In this document: in pieces, positions 8,496-42,162 of the stretch | How positions within the stretch are numbered: position 1 is the first letter of the stretch | How the letters are laid out: each line of letters starts with the position of its first letter | Assembly (NCBI GenBank): GCA_036504895.1 | Contig: DASXUJ010000080.1 | Span: 1-42,185 of the forward strand | From: Syntrophorhabdaceae bacterium | GTDB lineage: Bacteria > Desulfobacterota > Syntrophorhabdia > Syntrophorhabdales > Syntrophorhabdaceae | DNA length: 42,185 nucleotides | Reading direction: 5' to 3' | Notes under the pieces: generated by a model | Seen by the model: only the letters and a program-made list of their open reading frames with translations | Told to the model about the DNA's origin: nothing | The model's database searches: none | Position numbers and translations under genes: made by a program

Positions 8496-9542
8496 CTAAA
8501 GGACGGGCGAGGGGTTTACGCTGACCCTGGGACCCCCGGCGAACCTTTCGATCCTGCCGATAAGGGAAGCTTTCTCGCCGGATTGAGAGAAGAGGTCTAT
8601 CACAGCGCCCTCATCTTTATTATCCACTACTAATATAAAGCCAATGCCCATATTAAAAGTGGAGCACATCTCGTCGAAAGATACTTCGCCGATTCGCATG
8701 ATGTGACCGAAAATAGGAGGTACCTCAGACATGAGGCCGATGCGGGCGGAAAGTCCCTCCGGAATTATCCTCTCGATGTTTCCCGGAAGACCTCCTCCGG
8801 TGATATGGGCCATGCCTCGCACGGTGAAGCGATCGAGAACAGTCGAAACAGGCTTCACATAGATCCGTGTGGGTTTCAACAGCTCCTCGTAAAGGGGACC
8901 TTCCAGCTTTTGGAGGCGGTCGGTAATCTTCAATTTGCCCATGTCGAACAAAACTTTTCTTGCCATGGAATACCCGTTGCTGTGAAGGCCGCTCGAAGCA
9001 AGACCTATGATGCTGTCGCCATCCCTGATGGTCCTGCCGTTGATAATCCCTTCCTTTTCCACAAAACCCATGGCGAACCCGGCAAGATCGTATTCGCCGT
9101 CTTTGTAGAAGGACGGCATTTCTGCAGTCTCCCCGCCGATGAGGGCGCAGCCGGCCATAAGGCAGCCGTCGCATATCCCTGCGATCACATCTTTATACAC
9201 CCCGTCTTCAAGGCGTCCGCTCGCGAAATAATCGAGAAAGAAATAAGGCTTCGCCCCCATGGTGAGGACGTCATTTGCACTCATGGCCACAAGATCGATG
9301 CCCACGGTAGTATGCTTATTGGCATCGAATGCGATCTTCAGCTTGGTTCCGACCCCATCCGTCGAGCTGACGAGCACAGGGTTCTTATAGCCCGAGGGAA
9401 TCTCCGTCAGCGCGGCAAAACCGCCTATGGAATTCATCACAAAGGGATTGAAGGTACCCTGTATCCGGTCTCTGATGTGGGAGAGGAGGGTGTCCGCTCT
9501 CTTGATATCCACGCCCGAATCTTTGTAGGTCATGCCTGCCAT
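8496..9542 (-). CDS. purM: Phosphoribosylformylglycinamidine cyclo-ligase (AIR synthetase)
   Basis: Fifth step of purine synthesis: ATP-dependent ring closure of FGAM to AIR. The 348-residue protein shows TYKDSGVDIKRAD at the N-terminus, LVSSTDGVGTKLKIA, VGIDLVAMSANDVLTMGAKP, and GGETAEMPSFY, all PurM landmarks, and IGLASSGLHSNGYS in the C-terminal half. Two starts are possible, ATG 9542 and ATG 9533. I prefer 9542 because a -35/-10 pair predicts transcription starting almost exactly there. No ribosome-binding site precedes 9542. The gene stands alone without other pur genes in the window. Confidence 0.95.
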   Translation of the reverse strand: MAGMTYKDSGVDIKRADTLLSHIRDRIQGTFNPFVMNSIGGFAALTEIPSGYKNPVLVSSTDGVGTKLKIAFDANKHTTVGIDLVAMSANDVLTMGAKPYFFLDYFASGRLEDGVYKDVIAGICDGCLMAGCALIGGETAEMPSFYKDGEYDLAGFAMGFVEKEGIINGRTIRDGDSIIGLASSGLHSNGYSMARKVLFDMGKLKITDRLQKLEGPLYEELLKPTRIYVKPVSTVLDRFTVRGMAHITGGGLPGNIERIIPEGLSARIGLMSEVPPIFGHIMRIGEVSFDEMCSTFNMGIGFILVVDNKDEGAVIDLFSQSGEKASLIGRIERFAGGPRVSVNPSPVL

Positions 9543-9549
9543 GGGTCTA

Positions 9550-9578
9550 ATCTAAAATGGATAAAGGGTCCGTGTCAA
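9550..9578 (-). promoter_or_regulatory. Predicted leaderless promoter of purM
   Basis: On the minus strand, TTGACA (9573-9578), a 17-base spacer and TTAGAT (9550-9555). Only 7 bases separate the -10 from ATG 9542, so the transcript should start at or next to the start codon. The -10 match is moderate (3 of 6). Confidence 0.5.
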
Positions 9579-19711: not shown

Positions 19712-19909
19712 TCAGGCAATCTTATCTTTTTCTTTGGGGTTGTCGCTGGAGGGAAGGGTTTCTTTGCTTTCAGGCTCGCTGACGGCCTTTTTGAATCCTT
19801 TTATGCTCTTACCGATAGCTCCGCCGATCTCCGGAAGTTTGCCTGCGCCGAAGATAAGAACGACTATCACCATTATTATGATAAGCTCAGGAAAACCCAG
19901 ACCGAACAT
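19712..19909 (-). CDS. tatA: Twin-arginine translocase subunit TatA/E
   Basis: Pore-forming subunit of the Tat pathway that exports folded, cofactor-bearing proteins. At 65 residues it has the expected layout: [20 protein letters not shown] as membrane helix, the [10 protein letters not shown] hinge, an amphipathic helix ([13 protein letters not shown]) and a short charged tail. It lies directly upstream of folK in a two-gene run. tatC is not in the window. No ribosome-binding site is visible, and a promoter is placed so that the mRNA would start at the ATG. Confidence 0.92.
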
Positions 19910-19915
19910 GAGAAT

Positions 19916-19944
19916 AGCTTACCATGTACCGTTATCGCCGTCAA
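19916..19944 (-). promoter_or_regulatory. Predicted leaderless promoter of tatA-folK
   Basis: Minus-strand TTGACG (19939-19944), 17-base spacer, TAAGCT (19916-19921), then 6 bases to ATG 19909. The -10 keeps the three most conserved positions (TA...T). Confidence 0.45.
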
Positions 19945-19993
19945 TCCCCTGGAACGCATTCTTTCCCGGGGCCTCTTTCAACCGCAGACAAGG

Positions 19994-20022
19994 TTGACTG
20001 AGAAAGGAAATTCCTCTAATAT
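19994..20022 (+). promoter_or_regulatory. Predicted leaderless promoter of def-fmt
   Basis: TTGACT (19994-19999), 17-base spacer, TAATAT (20017-20022), then 7 bases to ATG 20030. The predicted first transcribed base is at or next to the A of the start codon. There is no ribosome-binding site. Confidence 0.65.
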
Positions 20023-20029
20023 ATAGGCT

Positions 20030-20527
20030 ATGGCATTAAAGGAGATAAGGATTTATCCGGACCCGGTGCTACGCAAAACAGCGGTGAGAATCGACTGCGT
20101 AAGCGACGAGATCGTGCGACTTTCTCAAGATATGATAGAGACCATGTGTCTGGCAAGTGGCGCCGGCCTCGCGGCAACCCAGGTCGGTATAGGGTTGAGG
20201 CTCATAGTGATAGACGAGCACATGACGGGGGATAAAAAGCCGATCGTGTTGATTAATCCCGAGGTCCTCCTTTCAGAAGCAGAGGAAACCGTCGAAGAGG
20301 GCTGCCTGAGCGTGCCGAAGTTCTTTGAATTCGTGAAAAGACCGAAAAGGGTAAGGGTAAGGGCGGTTGACCTGAGGGACGAGGTCATCGAGATCGACTG
20401 CGAAGACCAGTTGGCAAGGGCCCTGCAGCATGAGATAGACCACCTCAACGGTATCCTCTTTATAGATCATCTGAGTCCCTTAAAAAGGGAGTTCTTCAAA
20501 AAGAAATTCATGAGGCCCAAAAGGTGA
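20030..20527 (+). CDS. def: Peptide deformylase
   Basis: Removes the formyl group from new N-termini; a metalloenzyme of 165 residues. Three motifs are complete: GAGLAATQVG (45-54), EEGCLSVP with metal ligand Cys92, and QHEIDHLNG with His134, Glu135 and His138. Coupled to fmt by a GTGA overlap, so formylation and deformylation are made together, a common arrangement. The start codon is 7 bases after a -10 element, so the message is predicted to be leaderless. Confidence 0.97.
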   Translation: MALKEIRIYPDPVLRKTAVRIDCVSDEIVRLSQDMIETMCLASGAGLAATQVGIGLRLIVIDEHMTGDKKPIVLINPEVLLSEAEETVEEGCLSVPKFFEFVKRPKRVRVRAVDLRDEVIEIDCEDQLARALQHEIDHLNGILFIDHLSPLKREFFKKKFMRPKR

Positions 20528-21453
20528 GGGTCGCCTATTTGGGGTCATCGAGTTTCTCAGTACCTCCTCTAAGGTCCATTCTTTCCGATGTCGCATTGGT
20601 GATCACTAAGAAAGCCAAACCTAAAGGGCGCGGATATCTCCTTGAGAATAATGAAGTGAAGCAGATCGCATTAGAATCGGGAATTCCCTTTGTCGAGATA
20701 GATTCCTTCAGGGACGATGCCGCACAACAACTCAGGGAGTACGCTCCCGACCTTCTGGTGGTCGCGTCATTCGGCCTTATGGTCCCCCGGTGGGCCCTCC
20801 TCCTCCCTTCCATGGGCCCCCTGAATATTCATCCCTCTCTTCTGCCGAAATACAGAGGTCCTTCGCCCATTCAGTGGGCGATCTGGAACGGTGAGAGCGA
20901 AACCGGGATCACCTTCATACGAATGAATGAAAAGATGGACGAAGGCGACATTCTCTATCAGACCCATGTGGGGATTGAGCCGGGCGAAAATGCAGTGAGC
21001 CTGTCGGAGCGGCTCTCTCGTAAGGCCGCCGAGATACTCCCCGGGTTCATCGACAATCCGGAGAACCGGGAAATGGGTGCCGGCATTGTTCAGAATTCCG
21101 AAGAGGCCACCTATACTCCCATTATTACCAAGGAGATGGGGAAGATCGACTGGAGTCTCGGCGCCCTCGAGATTACCAGACAGATCAGGGCACTAGCGGG
21201 CTGGCCCACTGCGTTTACCTTTCTTGACGGACTCCTCCTCAAGATTTTTGACGCAGATATCTATGATCCGGCTGCCGCGGGCGAACCGGGTCTCATAACG
21301 GGATTGAGAAAAGAGGGATTTCTTGTCTCCACGCCGAATGGTACGGTTGTTGTATACGAAGTTCAACTGGAGAACAAGAGGAGGATGAATGCCTATCAGT
21401 TTGCCCAGGGCTATAGGACCCTTATTAATAAACAACTGGGAGAGCGGGGTTAA
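20524..21453 (+). CDS. fmt: Methionyl-tRNA formyltransferase
   Basis: Formylates initiator Met-tRNA with 10-formyl-tetrahydrofolate. The 309-residue protein has the N-terminal start MRVAYLGSSSFSVPPL and the catalytic NIHPSLLPKYRGPSPIQWAI (Asn101, His103). The family aspartate is in KMDEGDILY, and the C-terminal OB-like domain (about 205-305) has ALAGWPTAFTFL. The start is GTG 20524, overlapping the def stop (GTGA). Length is normal. folK and def nearby give a loose translation/folate theme. Confidence 0.96.
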   Translation: MRVAYLGSSSFSVPPLRSILSDVALVITKKAKPKGRGYLLENNEVKQIALESGIPFVEIDSFRDDAAQQLREYAPDLLVVASFGLMVPRWALLLPSMGPLNIHPSLLPKYRGPSPIQWAIWNGESETGITFIRMNEKMDEGDILYQTHVGIEPGENAVSLSERLSRKAAEILPGFIDNPENREMGAGIVQNSEEATYTPIITKEMGKIDWSLGALEITRQIRALAGWPTAFTFLDGLLLKIFDADIYDPAAAGEPGLITGLRKEGFLVSTPNGTVVVYEVQLENKRRMNAYQFAQGYRTLINKQLGERG

Positions 21454-26220: not shown

Positions 26221-26750
26221 CACGACCTCACGAGCACTACTTCGTCTTTCTTGTCCACTTCGCGCAGACGCACCAGGACCTCCTCGCCGGGGTCGACCGC
26301 ACATACCACCCCCGCATAATCGGGATGGATGGGAAGCTCTCTTTGACCCCTGTCCACGAGCACCGCGAGTTGAATCTTATTCGGTCTGCCCAGGTCCATA
26401 ATCGAATCAATGGCGGCCCTGGCGGTCCGGCCGGTATGCATTACGTCATCGACCAGGACAATCGTCTTACCGGTGAGGTCGAAGCGGATTTCCGTCTTCT
26501 TGAGCACCGGTGTTTTCAATTTAAAAATATCGTCCCGATACATGGTGATGTCGAGCACCCCCACGGGGAGTGATATTCCTTCGACCTCCAATATTTTATC
26601 CCTGATCCGGTTGGCCACGTGGACCCCCCTGGTGCGGATGCCTATAAGGCTCAATGATGCGCATCCTTCGTTTTTCTCGATAATCTCATGGGTGATCCGG
26701 TTGATCGTTCTTTCTATCGCCTTCTTATCGAGGAGCGTCTTCTTCTTCAT
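26220..26750 (-). CDS. pyrR: PyrR: pyrimidine regulatory protein / uracil phosphoribosyltransferase
   Basis: PyrR binds pyr mRNA in a UMP-dependent way in Bacillus and also has uracil phosphoribosyltransferase activity. The 176-residue protein has the PRPP motif [20 protein letters not shown] (about 95-114), [21 protein letters not shown] and [18 protein letters not shown]. It is translated directly after a small ferredoxin gene (TGATG). The predicted promoter leaves only about 4 nt before the first gene, and I saw no PyrR-binding loop upstream. So it may act here as an enzyme or bind elsewhere. Confidence 0.93.
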
Positions 26751-26929
26751 CAGTCATCCATCCGGATTGCTTTATGAGGACACATTTCCACGCATGACGT
26801 GCATTCGATGCAGTCCTCGGGGTGAGAAACGATTACCTTTCCGCCTGTAAACATAAAGACTTCATAGGGACAGGTTTCAACACATTCACGACACTCGGTG
26901 CATGATTCACTGGAGATGTAAGGTCTCAC
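26750..26929 (-). CDS. Small 2x4Fe-4S ferredoxin, first gene of the pyr operon
   Basis: A 59-residue gene, found by translating the minus strand. It starts at GTG 26929 (the preceding in-frame codon is TAA) and ends at TGA 26750-26752, which overlaps the pyrR ATG. The protein begins VRPYISSESCTECRECVETC and carries a second motif DCIECTSCVEMCPHKAIRMD. That is two complete CxxCxxCxxxC(P) 4Fe-4S motifs, so the frame is clearly selected. Being first in the operon, it may supply electrons to a dihydroorotate dehydrogenase encoded elsewhere, but this is a guess. No ribosome-binding site; the mRNA is predicted to be nearly leaderless. Confidence 0.88.
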   Translation of the reverse strand: MRPYISSESCTECRECVETCPYEVFMFTGGKVIVSHPEDCIECTSCVEMCPHKAIRMDD

Positions 26930-26939
26930 TTACCATAGT

Positions 26940-26968
26940 ACTATAGTTGGTCCGTATGAAAAAATCAA
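26940..26968 (-). promoter_or_regulatory. Predicted promoter of the ferredoxin-pyrRBC operon
   Basis: Minus-strand TTGATT (26963-26968), 17-base spacer, TATAGT (26940-26945). The start codon GTG 26929 lies 10 bases after the -10, leaving a leader of about 4 nt. Confidence 0.6.
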
Positions 26969-27024
26969 TCGGGAATCTGCGGGGAAAGAGAAAAAGAGTG
27001 CGTAAATGAGGGGGGCCTTTCTAG

Positions 27025-35445: not shown

Positions 35446-37758
35446 GTGGTGCAAGGTAAGCTTGAAGAAGTACTGGAGCTCAAGGAACGTGAGCTCAAGC
35501 TATACCGGAAGTTTCTGGCTCTCAAGGCTTTGTGTGAAGAAACCCTATTCCCCGCCCTTGATTTCCCTCTTGCAGATCATGTCGCACGCCTGAAAGAACT
35601 CATTGAGAAATTGATCCCCGATTCCAGGGACCGAAAGGAGGAAATGTTCTCGGGAGAGATATTTGCCCTTCTCGGCAGCCTCTATCTCCATGATGTCGGC
35701 CTAGTGCGAAGTCCTGCAGGAAAGGGGACGGACGAGCTTTTCAACGCCCTCGACAGGACTCATAAGACGGTCATTGCGAGCAATGAATTGGGGGCTCGCA
35801 TCGGTCTTCCGGCGCAGGCGATGGAAATCATCAATACCCTGAGCCTCTCCCACATCATCAGAAAAGTTCCCATGAAATGGGAGATCGAAGAGGGAGGCAG
35901 AAAGGCCATTTTAAGAAATACGAAGGTCCTTCAATATCTCTTCAACTTCTCCCACCTCCTCCTCGACGTATTCTATCCGGATCTGCATTATCCCGGTCTC
36001 AGAAGATACGGTAGTCTCGGCCTCGGTCTCAGCAATAAGAAAGCGGGGGTTGAAATCGACAGCAGGGAAGGGGTTATAGAGGTCACTTATCGTGACGCGT
36101 CGCCTTATGAGTTACATCATCTGAAGGCAGTGCAAAATTTTGTGAACGGGGCGTTTCACGTCTTCAGAAACAATGTAAACGGCAGGCTCGGTTTTCAGTA
36201 CCGCAAGATTAAATGGGATATAACGGGCGGCTTAAACAAGGGTTCGGCCGCTCCTCCGGATGCGGGCGTTTCTCTATTTAAGGAACGAGACAAGCCGGGT
36301 TTTCCGAGGTGGGAAGAAGGCTCATCTATCCTGGATTGCCTCTTTGAAAACGGTAACGTGGTGATGGTAGGCGAAGAGTCCGTGGGCAAGACTACGCTGC
36401 TTACGTCCTTTGTGCTCCCCCAGCTATTGAGCCTCGCCTCCAATACGTTCTATTGCGAGTTATGGAAGAGTCCCGTGAATGAGATCAGGGACTCCATATG
36501 CACAAGATATGAGAATCTGGGATACAGCGGTCTCGACATCGTCTCTATCTGCAGCAGGCTTTTGGAGAAGGGGCCTTGTATTTTTCTCCTTGATTCATGT
36601 GAAAGAATGGTGGGTCTCGACCAGGGTGAGACGGAGAAATTCGAGAGATTTCTCGAATTCTGTTTTGAAAAGGACAACATGTTTCTTGTGGTTTCAGGCG
36701 AGAAAGAGACTTTTTTCGACTGGTTCGGTCTCTTCGGAAAGATGAAGCTTTCCTCTATCAGGGAAGTGAAAGCGGTGGAGGGTGAAAAAGCCGGAATCCA
36801 TTATGGTGAGCGTTCGGGAGGATGGATAGAAGGACACTATTATAGACCGATAGAATGTGAGTTTGCCGACAAAGGGATCCGCCTTGAAGAGATAATTGAA
36901 GGCGTGGCCCGGGAAGCGGAGGATAGGACCGCGCTCAGAAGTATGCTGGCGGGGATGACGGAGATAAGCGGACGTCACCTGAAGCGGTATACTATGGAAG
37001 AGATTCGCTTTGAGACTGCCCTCCCGATAGGGAGAATTGTCGAGAATCTCTATGTTCTGCAGAAAGCAGGCCTGGTAAAGGAAACCCGCCTTGCCGATTC
37101 CAGATTTTTCTCCTTATCCGGCAGGTTCGTGAGGGAGCCCCTTCACCGCATCCTGAGGCTTTATGAGTTCGACGAAAGGGGGCTTCTCAGACGGCACATG
37201 GGTCGAGCCCTCGTCAGCGACTCCGAGGTGGACCGGAAGGTCCTGCATCTCGCAAGGAAATGGAAAGACCGCACCTGTTTTTCTTCGGAAGAGATGGGCC
37301 TTATTCTCGCCGGCCTCATCTCCGCAGGGGATGATTATTCATCTTTTGTGGAGAAGGCCGCCCGGGACGGGAGCGGCATTGACGTTCAGCCTATTCTGCG
37401 ATTCCTCTATTCTCAGGACGTAGAGAAGAGGAAGAAGGCAATCGAACTCGTCATTCAGGTTGAAGATAAGAAAACGATTAACCCCCTGCTCCGCCATTTG
37501 AAGAAAGAAAACGTGCAGGAGATCAGGAATATCCTGATCAAAGGGATGGCACGAAACGGGAACAGAGGCACCATGATCGCGATCCTCCAGGCATTGCGGG
37601 AAATCGGTGAAAGCAGCCTCCGGCTCAAGGCTATTCAGTTCTTCTCATCTCTTCTCGAGGACAGCTCAAAAGGCCTACTCCTGGACATCAAAGCAACTGA
37701 AGAGGACCCCACGGTGCTTGCCGAGGTGAACAGGCTTCTTTCTAAGACGGGAACCTGA
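35446..37758 (+). CDS. Large HD-domain / P-loop NTPase / winged-helix / HEAT-repeat protein, unknown function
   Basis: I do not recognise this 770-residue protein as a named one. Residues about 40-180 look like an HD hydrolase: DHV (His45), [15 protein letters not shown] (His82-Asp83), HKT (His106), SHII (His136), then [15 protein letters not shown] where other HD proteins read LLRLADALD. Residues 180-262 are a mixed beta region. A STAND-like NTPase core follows: Walker A GEESVGKT (309-316), Walker B IFLLDSCE (379-386), sensor strand FLVVSGEKE. Residues about 515-565 read as a winged helix ([18 protein letters not shown]), and 645-765 as HEAT-like helical repeats. GTG 35446 is the first start after an in-frame stop, with no ribosome-binding site. 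The 3' end overlaps serS by 17 bases. No membrane segment. Confidence 0.75.
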
Positions 37759-39013
37759 CCATCCCGTGCATATAGGGTCTCAGCACATCGGGGACCCTTA
37801 TAGAGCCGTCCGGCTCCTGGTAGTTTTCCATGACCGCCATTACGGTGCGTCCGATTGCGAGACCCGAACCATTCAGGGTATGAAGGAGGTCTACTTTGCC
37901 CGAATCCTTTCGATATCGTATTTTCGCCCTTCTCGCCTGAAAGGTGTCAAAGTTGCTGCACGACGATATCTCGCGGTAGATATTCTGGCCGGGCAGCCAC
38001 ACCTCTATGTCGTAGGTCTTCGCTGAAGAGAATCCGAGATCGCCGGTGGAGAGTGCGGATACCCTGTAATGGATCTTTAGACCTTTCAGTACATCCTCTG
38101 CGTCGAGAAGGAGGCCTTCGAGCTCTTCATAAGATTTGTCGGGGAGGGCAAATTTCACCAGCTCGACCTTGTTGAACTGGTGGAGCCGCGTCAACCCCCT
38201 TGTGTCCTTCCCGTGCGCTCCTGCCTCTTTTCTGAAGCAGGGGGTATAGGCGACATACTTCACCGGCAGGTCTTCCTCCCGGAGGATTTCATTATTATGA
38301 ATGTTGGTGACGGGCACCTCTGCAGTGGGGATGAGGAAATAATCAAAACCATCTACCTTGAACAGTTCTTCCTCGAACTTCGGAAGCTGGCCGGTCCCGG
38401 TCATGGAATCCCGGTTCACCATGAAAGGAGGGAGGACCTCCACGTATCCGTGCTCCCGGGTATGGAGATCGAGCATGTAATTTATGAGTGCCCTCTCGAG
38501 GAGGGCGCCGTAAGATTTATAGAGAATGAACCGGGAGCCCGTGATCTTCGCTGCCCTCTTAAAATCGAGAATATCCAGTTTTTCACCGAGATCCCAGTGC
38601 GGGAGGGGCTCAAATGCGAAAGACGGTTTCTCCCCCCACACCTTGACCACCTGGTTGTCTTCTTCTCCGGAGCCGACAGGCACACTGGTATGAGGTATAT
38701 TTGGAATGAGTAATATCATGTCATCCCACTGCTTCTCGACTTCTTTCAACTCCCGCTCCGCCTCCTCAATGCGACGACCAAGGTCTCTCAGGTCTTCGAT
38801 CTGCTCCTGGGCAGCCTGGCCGGACTTCCTGAGTTTTGCAATCTCGTTCGAGAGATCGTTCTTTTGACTCTTCATCCCCTCGCTTTCCTGAATCAGGCCC
38901 CTCCGTCTCTCATCGATCTTTCGAAGCCCCTCTATATCAAACGTAGCTCCCCGTTTACTCAGGCTGTCAATCAGGAACTCAGGTTTTTCACGTATGATCT
39001 TCGGATCAATCAT
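37742..39013 (-). CDS. serS: Seryl-tRNA synthetase
   Basis: Charges tRNA-Ser (and tRNA-Sec). The 423-residue class II synthetase has the N-terminal long coiled-coil arm (about 30-105), motif 2 [20 protein letters not shown], and motif 3 [20 protein letters not shown]. The motif 1 region ([15 protein letters not shown]) precedes a loop with [23 protein letters not shown] follows the GerMN-protein stop directly (TAAATG) with ggagg upstream, so it is the last gene of the tatD run. It converges with, and overlaps by 17 bases, the HD/NTPase gene. Confidence 0.97.
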
Positions 39014-39544
39014 TTACTCCTCCACTAGTTGATTATTTATTTCGAGAGGGGCAAAGGTGTAGACCACACCGGCGAGGGTGTGGGGCGCCTGTCCCTCCAC
39101 GAGTATCTGAGCTTTCCCGGCTTCCCGGAAATTGATCAGAAAAGAGTTGATAACGGAATAGACGGTAGTGATCTCCTCTGCCGCGTCTATTTTCTCACGC
39201 TTCATGTCCTGGGAGAAGTTGAGATAGAGAACACCCTCTCCGTCTATTGAAAACTCATGGAGTGTGACCGTGTCGGGTATTGCATTCCCCATCCTCAGTT
39301 CCCTCATGATTATATCCATTTTTTCCTGTTGAGAAATGCCGTCTTTCGTCTCCACCCTCTTGCGAAAAAGTGTTCCCTCATCGGTCGGAAGAAAGACAGT
39401 GAGAGCCTCCTTTTTTGGTGCAGCCGCAGGCGCGGGGGTTTCCCTGCCCCTTAAGGCCATCATAACTGCCAGACTGCCGGCGACTACGATAAGCGCAAGG
39501 CCTCCCAGTAGAAGAAGTTTTTTATAAGAGAACGGTTCTTTCAT
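39014..39544 (-). CDS. GerMN-domain membrane-anchored protein
   Basis: A 176-residue protein with one N-terminal membrane helix (about 9-30, LLLLGGLALIVVAGSLAVMM), a proline/alanine linker, and a GerMN domain (about 45-170). GerMN landmarks are ALTVFLPTDEGTLFRK, a short helix-rich insert, GEGVLYLNFSQDM and TVYSVINSFLINF with a final QILVEGQAP strand. The domain is found in spore-germination GerM and in many Gram-negative envelope proteins, where its role is unknown. Nothing here suggests sporulation. Start ATG 39544 has no ribosome-binding site; it follows the isochorismatase-like gene by 52 bases. Confidence 0.82.
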   Translation of the reverse strand: MKEPFSYKKLLLLGGLALIVVAGSLAVMMALRGRETPAPAAAPKKEALTVFLPTDEGTLFRKRVETKDGISQQEKMDIIMRELRMGNAIPDTVTLHEFSIDGEGVLYLNFSQDMKREKIDAAEEITTVYSVINSFLINFREAGKAQILVEGQAPHTLAGVVYTFAPLEINNQLVEE

Positions 39545-39596: not shown

Positions 39597-40160
39597 CTAC
39601 CGGCCGTTCCCGGCCTCCTTAATAAACTCTCCTGAATCCATCACCCTCAGGAGCGGATAAATAGCGGAGTTCCTGTACGCATCCATGAAGCCCGTATGAA
39701 TTTCTCTTTTGTAGGCTGTGCTCAGATCATCAAGAAGAACGGTATAAAAATCGTGACAAAGGGCATCGAAGGCTGTCGCGAGGACACAAAAATGAGTGTT
39801 TATGCCGGCCACTGCCACGGTATCCACTCCCATCGTACGCAAAGTCTGATCGAGGTCCGTTTTGAAAAAGGCGCTGAACCTTCTTTTCTCAAGTATTATA
39901 TCCTTGTCCTGGGGCTCGAGGTCGGAGAGGGGCTTTGTACCCTCTGTTCCACGCAAGGCATGAGGTTTCATTCTTCCACGGAAGATGAAATCCTGTTCAA
40001 GAAAACTATCGCATGCAAATATAACCGGGACGGAAAAAGCCCTGCAGTCCCTGAGAAAATCCCTCACCGGAATGACTATTTTCTCTTCCTCTCTTGTGCC
40101 GGTTCTCTCTTTGCGGTAATTTCCTTCGAGCATATCAACGATAATGACGGCGGCATTCAT
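39597..40160 (-). CDS. Isochorismatase-family cysteine hydrolase
   Basis: A 187-residue hydrolase of the isochorismatase/nicotinamidase superfamily. The catalytic triad can be placed: Asp9 in VIIVDM, Lys92 in ILEKRRFSAFF, and Cys125 in AGINTHFCV. Members include nicotinamidase, isochorismatase and N-carbamoyl amidases; the sequence does not say which. The start ATG overlaps tatD by ATGA and follows ggaaggag. It lies in a tatD-hydrolase-GerMN-serS run. Confidence 0.87.
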   Translation of the reverse strand: MNAAVIIVDMLEGNYRKERTGTREEEKIVIPVRDFLRDCRAFSVPVIFACDSFLEQDFIFRGRMKPHALRGTEGTKPLSDLEPQDKDIILEKRRFSAFFKTDLDQTLRTMGVDTVAVAGINTHFCVLATAFDALCHDFYTVLLDDLSTAYKREIHTGFMDAYRNSAIYPLLRVMDSGEFIKEAGNGR

Positions 40161-40945
40161 TGCGGGGCTCCTTCCCGGCCCTCCAGAAAAAGGGCGACAA
40201 AATTTTTACGAATTTGCGATGCGAGGATTTCTTTCTCCACATCTCTGATCTCGGCGACCTTCGCCACTGTGGCCTTGACATAGAAGGGCAGGTTTCTCTT
40301 CCCCCTGTATGGATGGGGGGCGAGGAAGGGGGCGTCCGTCTCGGAGAGTATCCGGTCCGAAGGGACATATCTCGCCACTTCCGCGAGAGATATATTCTTT
40401 GTGTAAGTTATGGTGCCCGGAATGGATATAAAGAAACCGAGGTCCAGGAATTTCTTCGCATAATCGAGATCATAGGAAAAGCAGTGAATAACGCCTCCAC
40501 GGCCAAGGCTTTCCTTTGACGCCAGGAGGATATCATAGGTTTCACGGGGGGCACTTCTTGAATGGACGATGACGGGAAGACCCATTCGGCTTGCAAGCTG
40601 AATCTGCTCCTCAAAGGCCTTTATCTGAACGGACCCCGGGGAGCGGTTCTTGAAGAAGTCCAGTCCGATTTCGCCCAAGGCGACTATCTTGGGACCTCTC
40701 AGGGCATCTTGCAGTCTCTTTGCGGCGCCTCCGTCAAAGCCCGCGGCATTGTGGGGGTGTATCCCGATGGCCCCGTAAATTTGAGGATACTTTTCAGTTA
40801 TTTTTTCCACGAGACCGAAATAGGACTCTTCGGTACCCACGGTGAGCATGTAATCGAGTCCTTCTGCAAGACTTTCTTCAATGATATTCCACCTGTCATC
40901 ATCGAAATCTTCTATCTCCAGGTGGCAGTGGGAATCTACATACAT
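40157..40945 (-). CDS. tatD: TatD-family metal-dependent DNase
   Basis: A 262-residue TIM-barrel metallohydrolase. Metal-binding residues are in DSHCHLEI (His6, His8), ALGEIGLDFF (Glu), LPVIVHSR (His), GGVIHCFS (His) and LSETDAPFL (Asp). TatD proteins are 3'-5' exonucleases and their name does not imply Tat transport. First gene of a minus-strand run ending in serS. The start codon lies 6 bases after a -10 element, so the mRNA is predicted to be leaderless. Confidence 0.93.
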   Translation of the reverse strand: MYVDSHCHLEIEDFDDDRWNIIEESLAEGLDYMLTVGTEESYFGLVEKITEKYPQIYGAIGIHPHNAAGFDGGAAKRLQDALRGPKIVALGEIGLDFFKNRSPGSVQIKAFEEQIQLASRMGLPVIVHSRSAPRETYDILLASKESLGRGGVIHCFSYDLDYAKKFLDLGFFISIPGTITYTKNISLAEVARYVPSDRILSETDAPFLAPHPYRGKRNLPFYVKATVAKVAEIRDVEKEILASQIRKNFVALFLEGREGAPQ

Positions 40946-40951
40946 GGCTGA

Positions 40952-40980
40952 TTTATAACATATTAAGCCGTTCTATTCAA
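40952..40980 (-). promoter_or_regulatory. Predicted leaderless promoter of the tatD-serS run
   Basis: Minus-strand TTGAAT (40975-40980), 17-base spacer, TATAAA (40952-40957), then 6 bases to ATG 40945. The -10 matches at 5 of 6 positions. Confidence 0.6.
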
Positions 40981-41300: not shown

Positions 41301-41681
41301 CTATACCTCGGGCTGGGGCGTGCCGGTCCTCTGCATGATACAAGAGCCGTTAAAGAGCGAACCGCTTTCAAGCACGATATTGGGCGTGGTGATATTGCCG
41401 GTATGAACCGCCGTCTCTTTAAGTATTACCTGCTCAGAGGCAGTGACGTCGCCCTTTATGTCTCCATGGGAAATCAGATTCTTCGTAGTGATGGTGGCGG
41501 TGACTCTCGCGGTGGGTCCGACAATCAAAAGTCCTTCCGAGATGATTTCCCCCTCGAATATGCCCTTAATCATGAGGGAGCTTTTGAACTTCATGGTACC
41601 TTTAATTTCCAGATCATCGGCTAATACCGTGGTGACGTTCTCTTCTCCGAGGCCCGTGGGGGTGGATGCAATATTTACCAT
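41301..41681 (-). CDS. Bactofilin, copy 2
   Basis: A 126-residue bactofilin, a cytoskeletal protein that forms right-handed beta-helix filaments used in cell shape or polar organisation. The core (about 18-115) is a regular run of beta turns: DLEIKGTMKFKSSLMIKGIF, EGEIISEGLLIVGPTARVTA, GDIKGDVTASEQVILKETAV and so on. Short disordered N- and C-tails flank it, as is normal. ATG follows aaaggag. It lies 43 bases after a close paralogue and both should be expressed together. Confidence 0.92.
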   Translation of the reverse strand: MVNIASTPTGLGEENVTTVLADDLEIKGTMKFKSSLMIKGIFEGEIISEGLLIVGPTARVTATITTKNLISHGDIKGDVTASEQVILKETAVHTGNITTPNIVLESGSLFNGSCIMQRTGTPQPEV

Positions 41682-41724: not shown

Positions 41725-42099
41725 TCATGTCAGGGTGATGTCTTTGGCTTTCATCATACAGGAACCGTTGAAAACCGATCCATGCTCCAGGACGATATTA
41801 CGCGTAGTAATATTGCCTGTATGCATTGCGCTGTCCTTCAGTACAACCTGCTCCGATGCGGTGACGTCGCCTTCAATCTCTCCATAAGAGATCAGGTTTT
41901 TTGTGGTAATGGTGGCGGCGACTTTCGCGGTGGGCCCAACGATCAACTGCCCTTCCGATATAATCTCTCCCTCAAAGACCCCTTTGATCATCAGAGAGCT
42001 TTCGAACTTCATGACGCCCTTAATCTCCAGATCATCGGCAAGCACGGTGGTGACTGTTTCTCCACTTCCTCCGGGAGCAGTGGGGGTGATATTTGCCAT
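41725..42099 (-). CDS. Bactofilin, copy 1
   Basis: A 124-residue bactofilin paralogous to the following gene, with DLEIKGVMKFESSLMIKGVF, EGEIISEGQLIVGPTAKVAA and GEIEGDVTASEQVVLKDSAM. The two differ chiefly in the tails and in scattered turn residues. The frame is open further upstream, but I chose ATG 42099 because a near-perfect aaaggaggt lies 4-5 bases before it. A TATAAC at 42124-42129 may be the -10 of its promoter, but the -35 match is weak. Confidence 0.92.
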   Translation of the reverse strand: MANITPTAPGGSGETVTTVLADDLEIKGVMKFESSLMIKGVFEGEIISEGQLIVGPTAKVAATITTKNLISYGEIEGDVTASEQVVLKDSAMHTGNITTRNIVLEHGSVFNGSCMMKAKDITLT

Positions 42100-42162
42100 C
42101 TTGACCTCCTTTGTGATGAATTGGTTATACTTCAACAGCAATCAGTAAAAACGTTATTCGGC

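Follow-up and report, generated by a model that had tools for sequence, protein, structure and literature searches.

The stretch of DNA analysed here, hereafter the window, spans contig C80 from end to end (42,185 bases). The draft genome it belongs to has 138 contigs and totals 4,346,290 bases. The tatD operon lies on the minus strand and has the following features.

40975-40980, minus strand: -35 element of the tatD promoter, TTGAAT (direct reading)
40952-40962, minus strand: extended -10 element of tatD, TATGTTATAAA, with 6 bases from its end to the ATG; hexamer TATAAA at 40952-40957 (direct reading)
40157-40945, minus strand: tatD, encoding a TatD-family DNase (PF01026, E 5.8e-75), predicted leaderless; ATG at 40943-40945
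39597-40160, minus strand: isochorismatase-family gene, operon position 2, overlapping the tatD stop (profile match)
39014-39544, minus strand: Germane-domain gene, operon position 3 (profile match)
37742-39013, minus strand: serS, operon position 4, led by a Shine-Dalgarno (SD) site, GGAGG

Upstream of tatD, the minus strand reads TTGAAT, 17 bases, TATAAA, 6 bases and ATG. This bears out what the initial annotation had described. The context of the -10 hexamer is TGTTATAAA. Since TG sits one base 5' of the hexamer, the element is of the extended type. No SD motif is present between the -10 and the ATG in the window sequence. The start codon is pinned by an HxH motif at residues 6-8 of the protein. 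Transcription from sigma-70 promoters normally begins ~7 bases after the -10. Hence, the predicted tatD transcription start falls on the A of the ATG. On the upstream side of tatD there is a bactofilin gene (41301-41681; PF04519), and the gene adjoining it (41725-42135) looks similar. A 770-residue protein with a sub-threshold HD-CE match only is encoded at 35446-37758, flanked by secF on one side and by the serS end of the operon on the other.

The initial annotation counted five leaderless starts in the 42 kb. Besides tatD, these were def, purM, tatA and a ferredoxin-pyr operon.

19994-20029, plus strand: def promoter; TTGACT (19994-19999), 17 bases, TAATAT (20017-20022), 7 bases to the ATG at 20030
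20030-20527, plus strand: def, encoding peptide deformylase (PF01327), predicted leaderless
20524-21453, plus strand: fmt (PF00551), overlapping the 3' end of def
9543-9578, minus strand: purM promoter; TTGACA (9573-9578), 18 bases, TAGATT (9549-9554), 6 bases to the ATG at 9540-9542
8496-9542, minus strand: purM (TIGR00878, 413.5 bits against a cut-off of 236), predicted leaderless
19910-19944, minus strand: tatA promoter; TTGACG (19939-19944), 17 bases, TAAGCT (19916-19921), 6 bases to the ATG at 19907-19909
19712-19909, minus strand: tatA-type gene, 65 residues (PF02416, TatA_B_E)
26930-26968, minus strand: ferredoxin-pyrR promoter; TTGATT (26963-26968), 17 bases, TATAGT (26940-26945), 10 bases to the GTG at 26927-26929
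26750-26929, minus strand: ferredoxin-type gene (Fer4 matches), predicted few-base leader, no SD
Downstream of the ferredoxin-type gene: pyrR (NF003549)

The def and purM promoters are near-consensus, while the -10 of tatA is weak. A single promoter pattern matched only def and purM in the window; the mean for shuffled sequence was 0.04 matches, and none of 100 shuffles gave two. When -35 and -10 scores were combined, four of the 30 first genes in the window scored at least 8. These were tatD, def, purM and tatA, and in each the -10 ends ~5-8 bases before the start. The ferredoxin-pyrR promoter falls outside this range. Since 10 bases separate its -10 from the GTG, its transcript is predicted to carry a short leader of a few bases. 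As genes with ordinary leaders and SD sites, the initial annotation had named mltD, secD, GYD and GNAT. SD-like sequence does precede mltD and the GNAT gene; the start of secD is ambiguous.

We then compared each start with those of relatives. Briefly, genes were aligned to their homologues and the bases upstream of the homologous start were read, with the window's own locus counted. Each set comprised the best matching loci for that gene, up to 30, and some genera are absent for some genes. For tatD, the 30 loci are members of the order plus one outgroup. Their proteins are 46-62% identical to the TatD of the window. The sequence TGnTATA occurs in 27/30 loci, ending 5 bases (15 loci) or 6 bases (12 loci) before the start. 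Across 70 positions in the 30 loci, it was found at no other distance. By kinship, it is present in 24/24 loci of the family, in three of five from other families of the order and in the one locus beyond the order not at all. The layout is therefore missing in three loci. The -35 is poorly kept, and the combined score reaches 8 in only 6/30 loci. A kept TG with a weak -35 is the pattern of an extended -10 sigma-70 promoter. SD-like motifs were seen in 2/30 loci. Among named distant organisms, no extended -10 was found in the 12 usable tatD loci; a further three of the 15 were left out, as their alignments did not reach the N-terminus. Four of these 12 score for a bipartite promoter at 4-7 bases; in three of the four, the start used lies 39-42 bases further upstream than the aligned one. 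Little can be read from this comparison.

Two other candidates were rejected. The tatD site could be read as a mini reading frame, ATG-NTA-TAA. In that case the varying base would be the first of a codon, and the frame is out of register with tatD in some loci. An extended -10 fits better. A second site common to relatives, TATGATATAATYTTTATG, was considered as a conserved leaderless promoter. Two loci were examined. In L167 the site is coding, in the frame NYDIIFMDPPY, which we take to be an RsmD-type motif, and L106 reads MDPPY after an ATG.

The same comparison was made for other genes, here scoring -35/-10 promoters ending 4-7 bases before the start. For def, the layout is present in 26/30 loci and in all ten genera covered, a set that lacks genera g3, g4 and g7. 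For purM, it is present in 22/30 loci and 9/13 genera. The gene dusB, named by TIGR00737, lies outside the window and was the top-scoring candidate of the genome scan. Two of its 30 loci had no usable start, leaving 28 rows. The layout occurs in 24 of these, equivalent to 23/27 distinct loci once a duplicate (L354 = L356) is counted once, and in 6/8 genera. As a gene picked from the genome scan and not from the window, dusB bears out the prediction independently. The layout is missing from four def, eight purM and four dusB loci. For dusB and purM, the best promoter is mostly 5-6 bases before the start, and nine loci of each gene combine the layout with a GTG start. Shuffles gave means of 0.2-0.45 rows for def, purM and dusB. 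SD-like motifs are scarce, with 0/30 for def, 2/30 for purM and 1/28 rows for dusB. Matches to tatA mix paralogues and the outcome is mixed; 12/30 loci are leaderless-like and the other 18 have an SD. Two control genes gave the opposite result. For the operon-internal serS, the layout occurs in 0/30 loci and an SD in 30/30. For an S1-family gene, the figures are 0/23 and 23/23, seven of 30 loci having been dropped for want of a usable start.

These data bear on three other explanations. First, the true promoters could lie further upstream and give real leaders. The conserved AT-rich stretch would then be kept unstructured, aiding SD-less initiation assisted by S1. The sites are indeed AT-rich and lack an SD, and leadered genes without an SD occur in bacteria. 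However, base composition would not by itself hold TGnTATA 5-6 bases from the start of tatD. Nor would it give def, purM and dusB a correctly spaced -35, as the same-base shuffles indicate. We consider this explanation quite unlikely. Second, the transcripts could carry ultra-short leaders of 1-5 bases instead of none, as the ferredoxin-pyrR promoter seems to give. One of the 30 pyrR loci had no ferredoxin match. In 27 of the remaining 29, the best-scoring -10, mostly TATAGT, is 7-13 bases from the start; none of the 29 has an SD. Similarly, two congeneric relatives have their def -10 at 9 and 13 bases, and short leaders are predicted for these. Predicted start points are also uncertain by 1-2 bases. 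Against this, the tatD element is found only at 5 or 6 bases, and those of dusB and purM mostly at 5-6. This is the distance expected for transcription starting on the first codon, and ultra-short leaders are as improbable an account as upstream promoters. Last, the tatD element could bind a regulator or another sigma factor. Its conservation is tight, and the window's genome has a single occurrence of the exact motif with an ATG 4-8 bases downstream. On the other hand, the one base that differs among loci is also the variable position of extended -10 elements, and different but -10-like sequences take the same place in def, purM and dusB. We rate this the least probable of the three.

A histogram of promoter distances was also made across the genome. 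Our sample was 100 stretches outside the window, totalling 1,694,662 bases or ~40% of the genome. Genes were called with a simple codon-usage caller of our own. A first gene was one with a same-strand gap of at least 40 bases, one with a divergent neighbour, or one with nothing called upstream of it in its stretch. The summed -35 and -10 score was computed upstream of the 869 first genes, with a threshold of at least 10 for the histogram; for window genes and tatD relatives it was at least 8. A -10 ending 5-7 bases before the start was found for 22/869 first genes, whereas 20 shuffles averaged 2.0 and never exceeded 4. Counted by position, 23 sites fall at 5-7 bases; positions 15-64 would predict 8.4 and the flanking positions 5.2. 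The initial annotation had asked about an excess at 6-10 bases; in this version of its test, a local excess appears at 5-7 bases. The layout is rarer among operon-internal genes (3/440; Fisher P 0.019). It occurs in 20/422 first genes without an SD motif and in 2/447 with one, a contrast partly forced by the geometry at such starts. The peak is visible with the combined score on 1.0 and 1.7 Mb. A first, smaller histogram, covering 0.40 Mb and using the -10 score only, had no clear peak.

By itself, the histogram is modest evidence and its peak is small, since the 282 first genes without another in-frame start codon within 45 bases gave only 6 sites where 2.7 were expected (P 0.06). The same pipeline applied to 200 kb of E. 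coli K-12 found 0/106. As a control this is weak (at the rate of the genome studied here, P 0.07) and has little power, as only three promoters scored at least 10 within 65 bases of starts. In 200 kb of the Deinococcus deserti plasmid NC_012529, 3/96 first genes were detected, and TANNNT peaks 5-8 bases before the start, resembling the genome studied here. The two differ in that all four plasmid sites scoring at least 10 lie within 14 bases of the start, whereas those of the window's genome are mostly further away. By strict detection, the leaderless share is 2.5% of first genes. As a very rough estimate, it is one in seven of the promoters that can be detected up to 65 bases from a start. The window is richer in such starts than an average stretch of the genome. 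Stronger support comes from the comparison across relatives, and it is this that carries the case.

The best-supported interpretation is that tatD, def(-fmt), purM and dusB are initiated leaderless from sigma-70-type promoters, with downstream operon genes led by SD sites. We give this a probability of roughly 85%. It rests on the promoter elements, on the constant spacing between them and the start codon, on the absence of an SD and on the conservation of all of these. From this we infer the transcription starts and the mode of initiation. The tatD operon would be transcribed from an extended -10 promoter of sigma-70 type, starting on the A of the ATG or within ~1 base of it. The mRNA would have neither leader nor SD site. 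Its 5'-terminal AUG, or GUG for other genes, would be recognised directly by the ribosome, most likely an assembled 70S particle with initiator tRNA. Downstream genes, serS for example, would be initiated at ordinary SD sites. In much of the family, the genes def(-fmt), purM and dusB would behave as tatD does; their first codon is ATG, and GTG is used as well by purM and dusB. Most genes would be SD-led or have other leaders. On the DNA alone, leaderless initiation is therefore predicted to be a real and conserved minority route, of a kind already known. It looks like a long-standing one in this group. The suggestion that it might be a regular route in the lineage is supported by tatD, def, purM and dusB, which keep the layout over many genera. 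At 2.5% of first genes, "regular" calls for qualification.

Leaderless genes have been surveyed before. The sections on TA-led genes in Zheng et al. (2011, PMC3160421) describe a Pribnow-like signal ~10 bases upstream of the start that replaces the SD, in 207/953 bacterial genomes. Such genes are there a minority outside Actinobacteria and Deinococcus-Thermus, and TG precedes the Pribnow box in some low-GC genomes. In contrast to what those sections report, single genes are here tracked over many genera, and the position at tatD is kept within one base. In mycobacteria, the relevant parts of Shell et al. (2015, PMC4633059) report that a leaderless start is conserved between orthologues of two species for 71/97 genes. 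ATG and GTG both work, and a -10 or an SD lies upstream of the start, the two being mutually exclusive. About a quarter of mycobacterial transcripts were leaderless by RNA-seq and ribosome profiling, whereas here a small minority is predicted from DNA. The same source states that a GUG at the 5' end is accepted by mycobacteria and hardly by E. coli. Leaderless mRNA is described as being initiated chiefly by 70S ribosomes, with IF2 promoting and IF3 impeding the process, in the portions of PMC4633059 and PMC7949028 that treat it. An earlier description of this gene set was not found in the literature searched, which reached few subscription papers. The kind is thus known already. What is added is a lineage with trackable genes and, at tatD, an extended -10 held in strict position over many genera.

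What results is a small group of genes in which the leaderless layout has outlasted protein divergence to ~46-72% identity. This group lets one ask why certain genes, the formylation pair def-fmt included, keep a leaderless route while serS uses an SD. A further question is whether a 5'-terminal GUG is accepted by the ribosomes of this lineage. One could imagine that def-fmt, purM, dusB and tatD form a set read leaderless on purpose. If the leaderless 70S route depends, as thought, on formylated initiator tRNA, the formylation enzymes would, via leaderless def-fmt, sense both their own product and the supply of one-carbon units and feed back on them. This would be the reason why the layout has persisted since the family's or the order's ancestor. 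Any such regulatory use would be conjectural, and we regard this scenario as unlikely.

Some arrangements are recorded as observations in their own right. The ferredoxin-pyrR promoter is strikingly conserved (26930-26970; relatives L365-L394), with a T run after the -35, mostly TATAGTAGTA or TATAGTACTA, and the start is GTG in 24/29 loci. The tatA and def genes are divergent (19907-20032), and both predicted leaderless promoters lie within the 120 bases between their start codons. In the genome scan, a divergent pair (L043:340-1521, minus strand, and L043:1604-2083, plus strand), 82 bases apart, had both members scored as leaderless-like.
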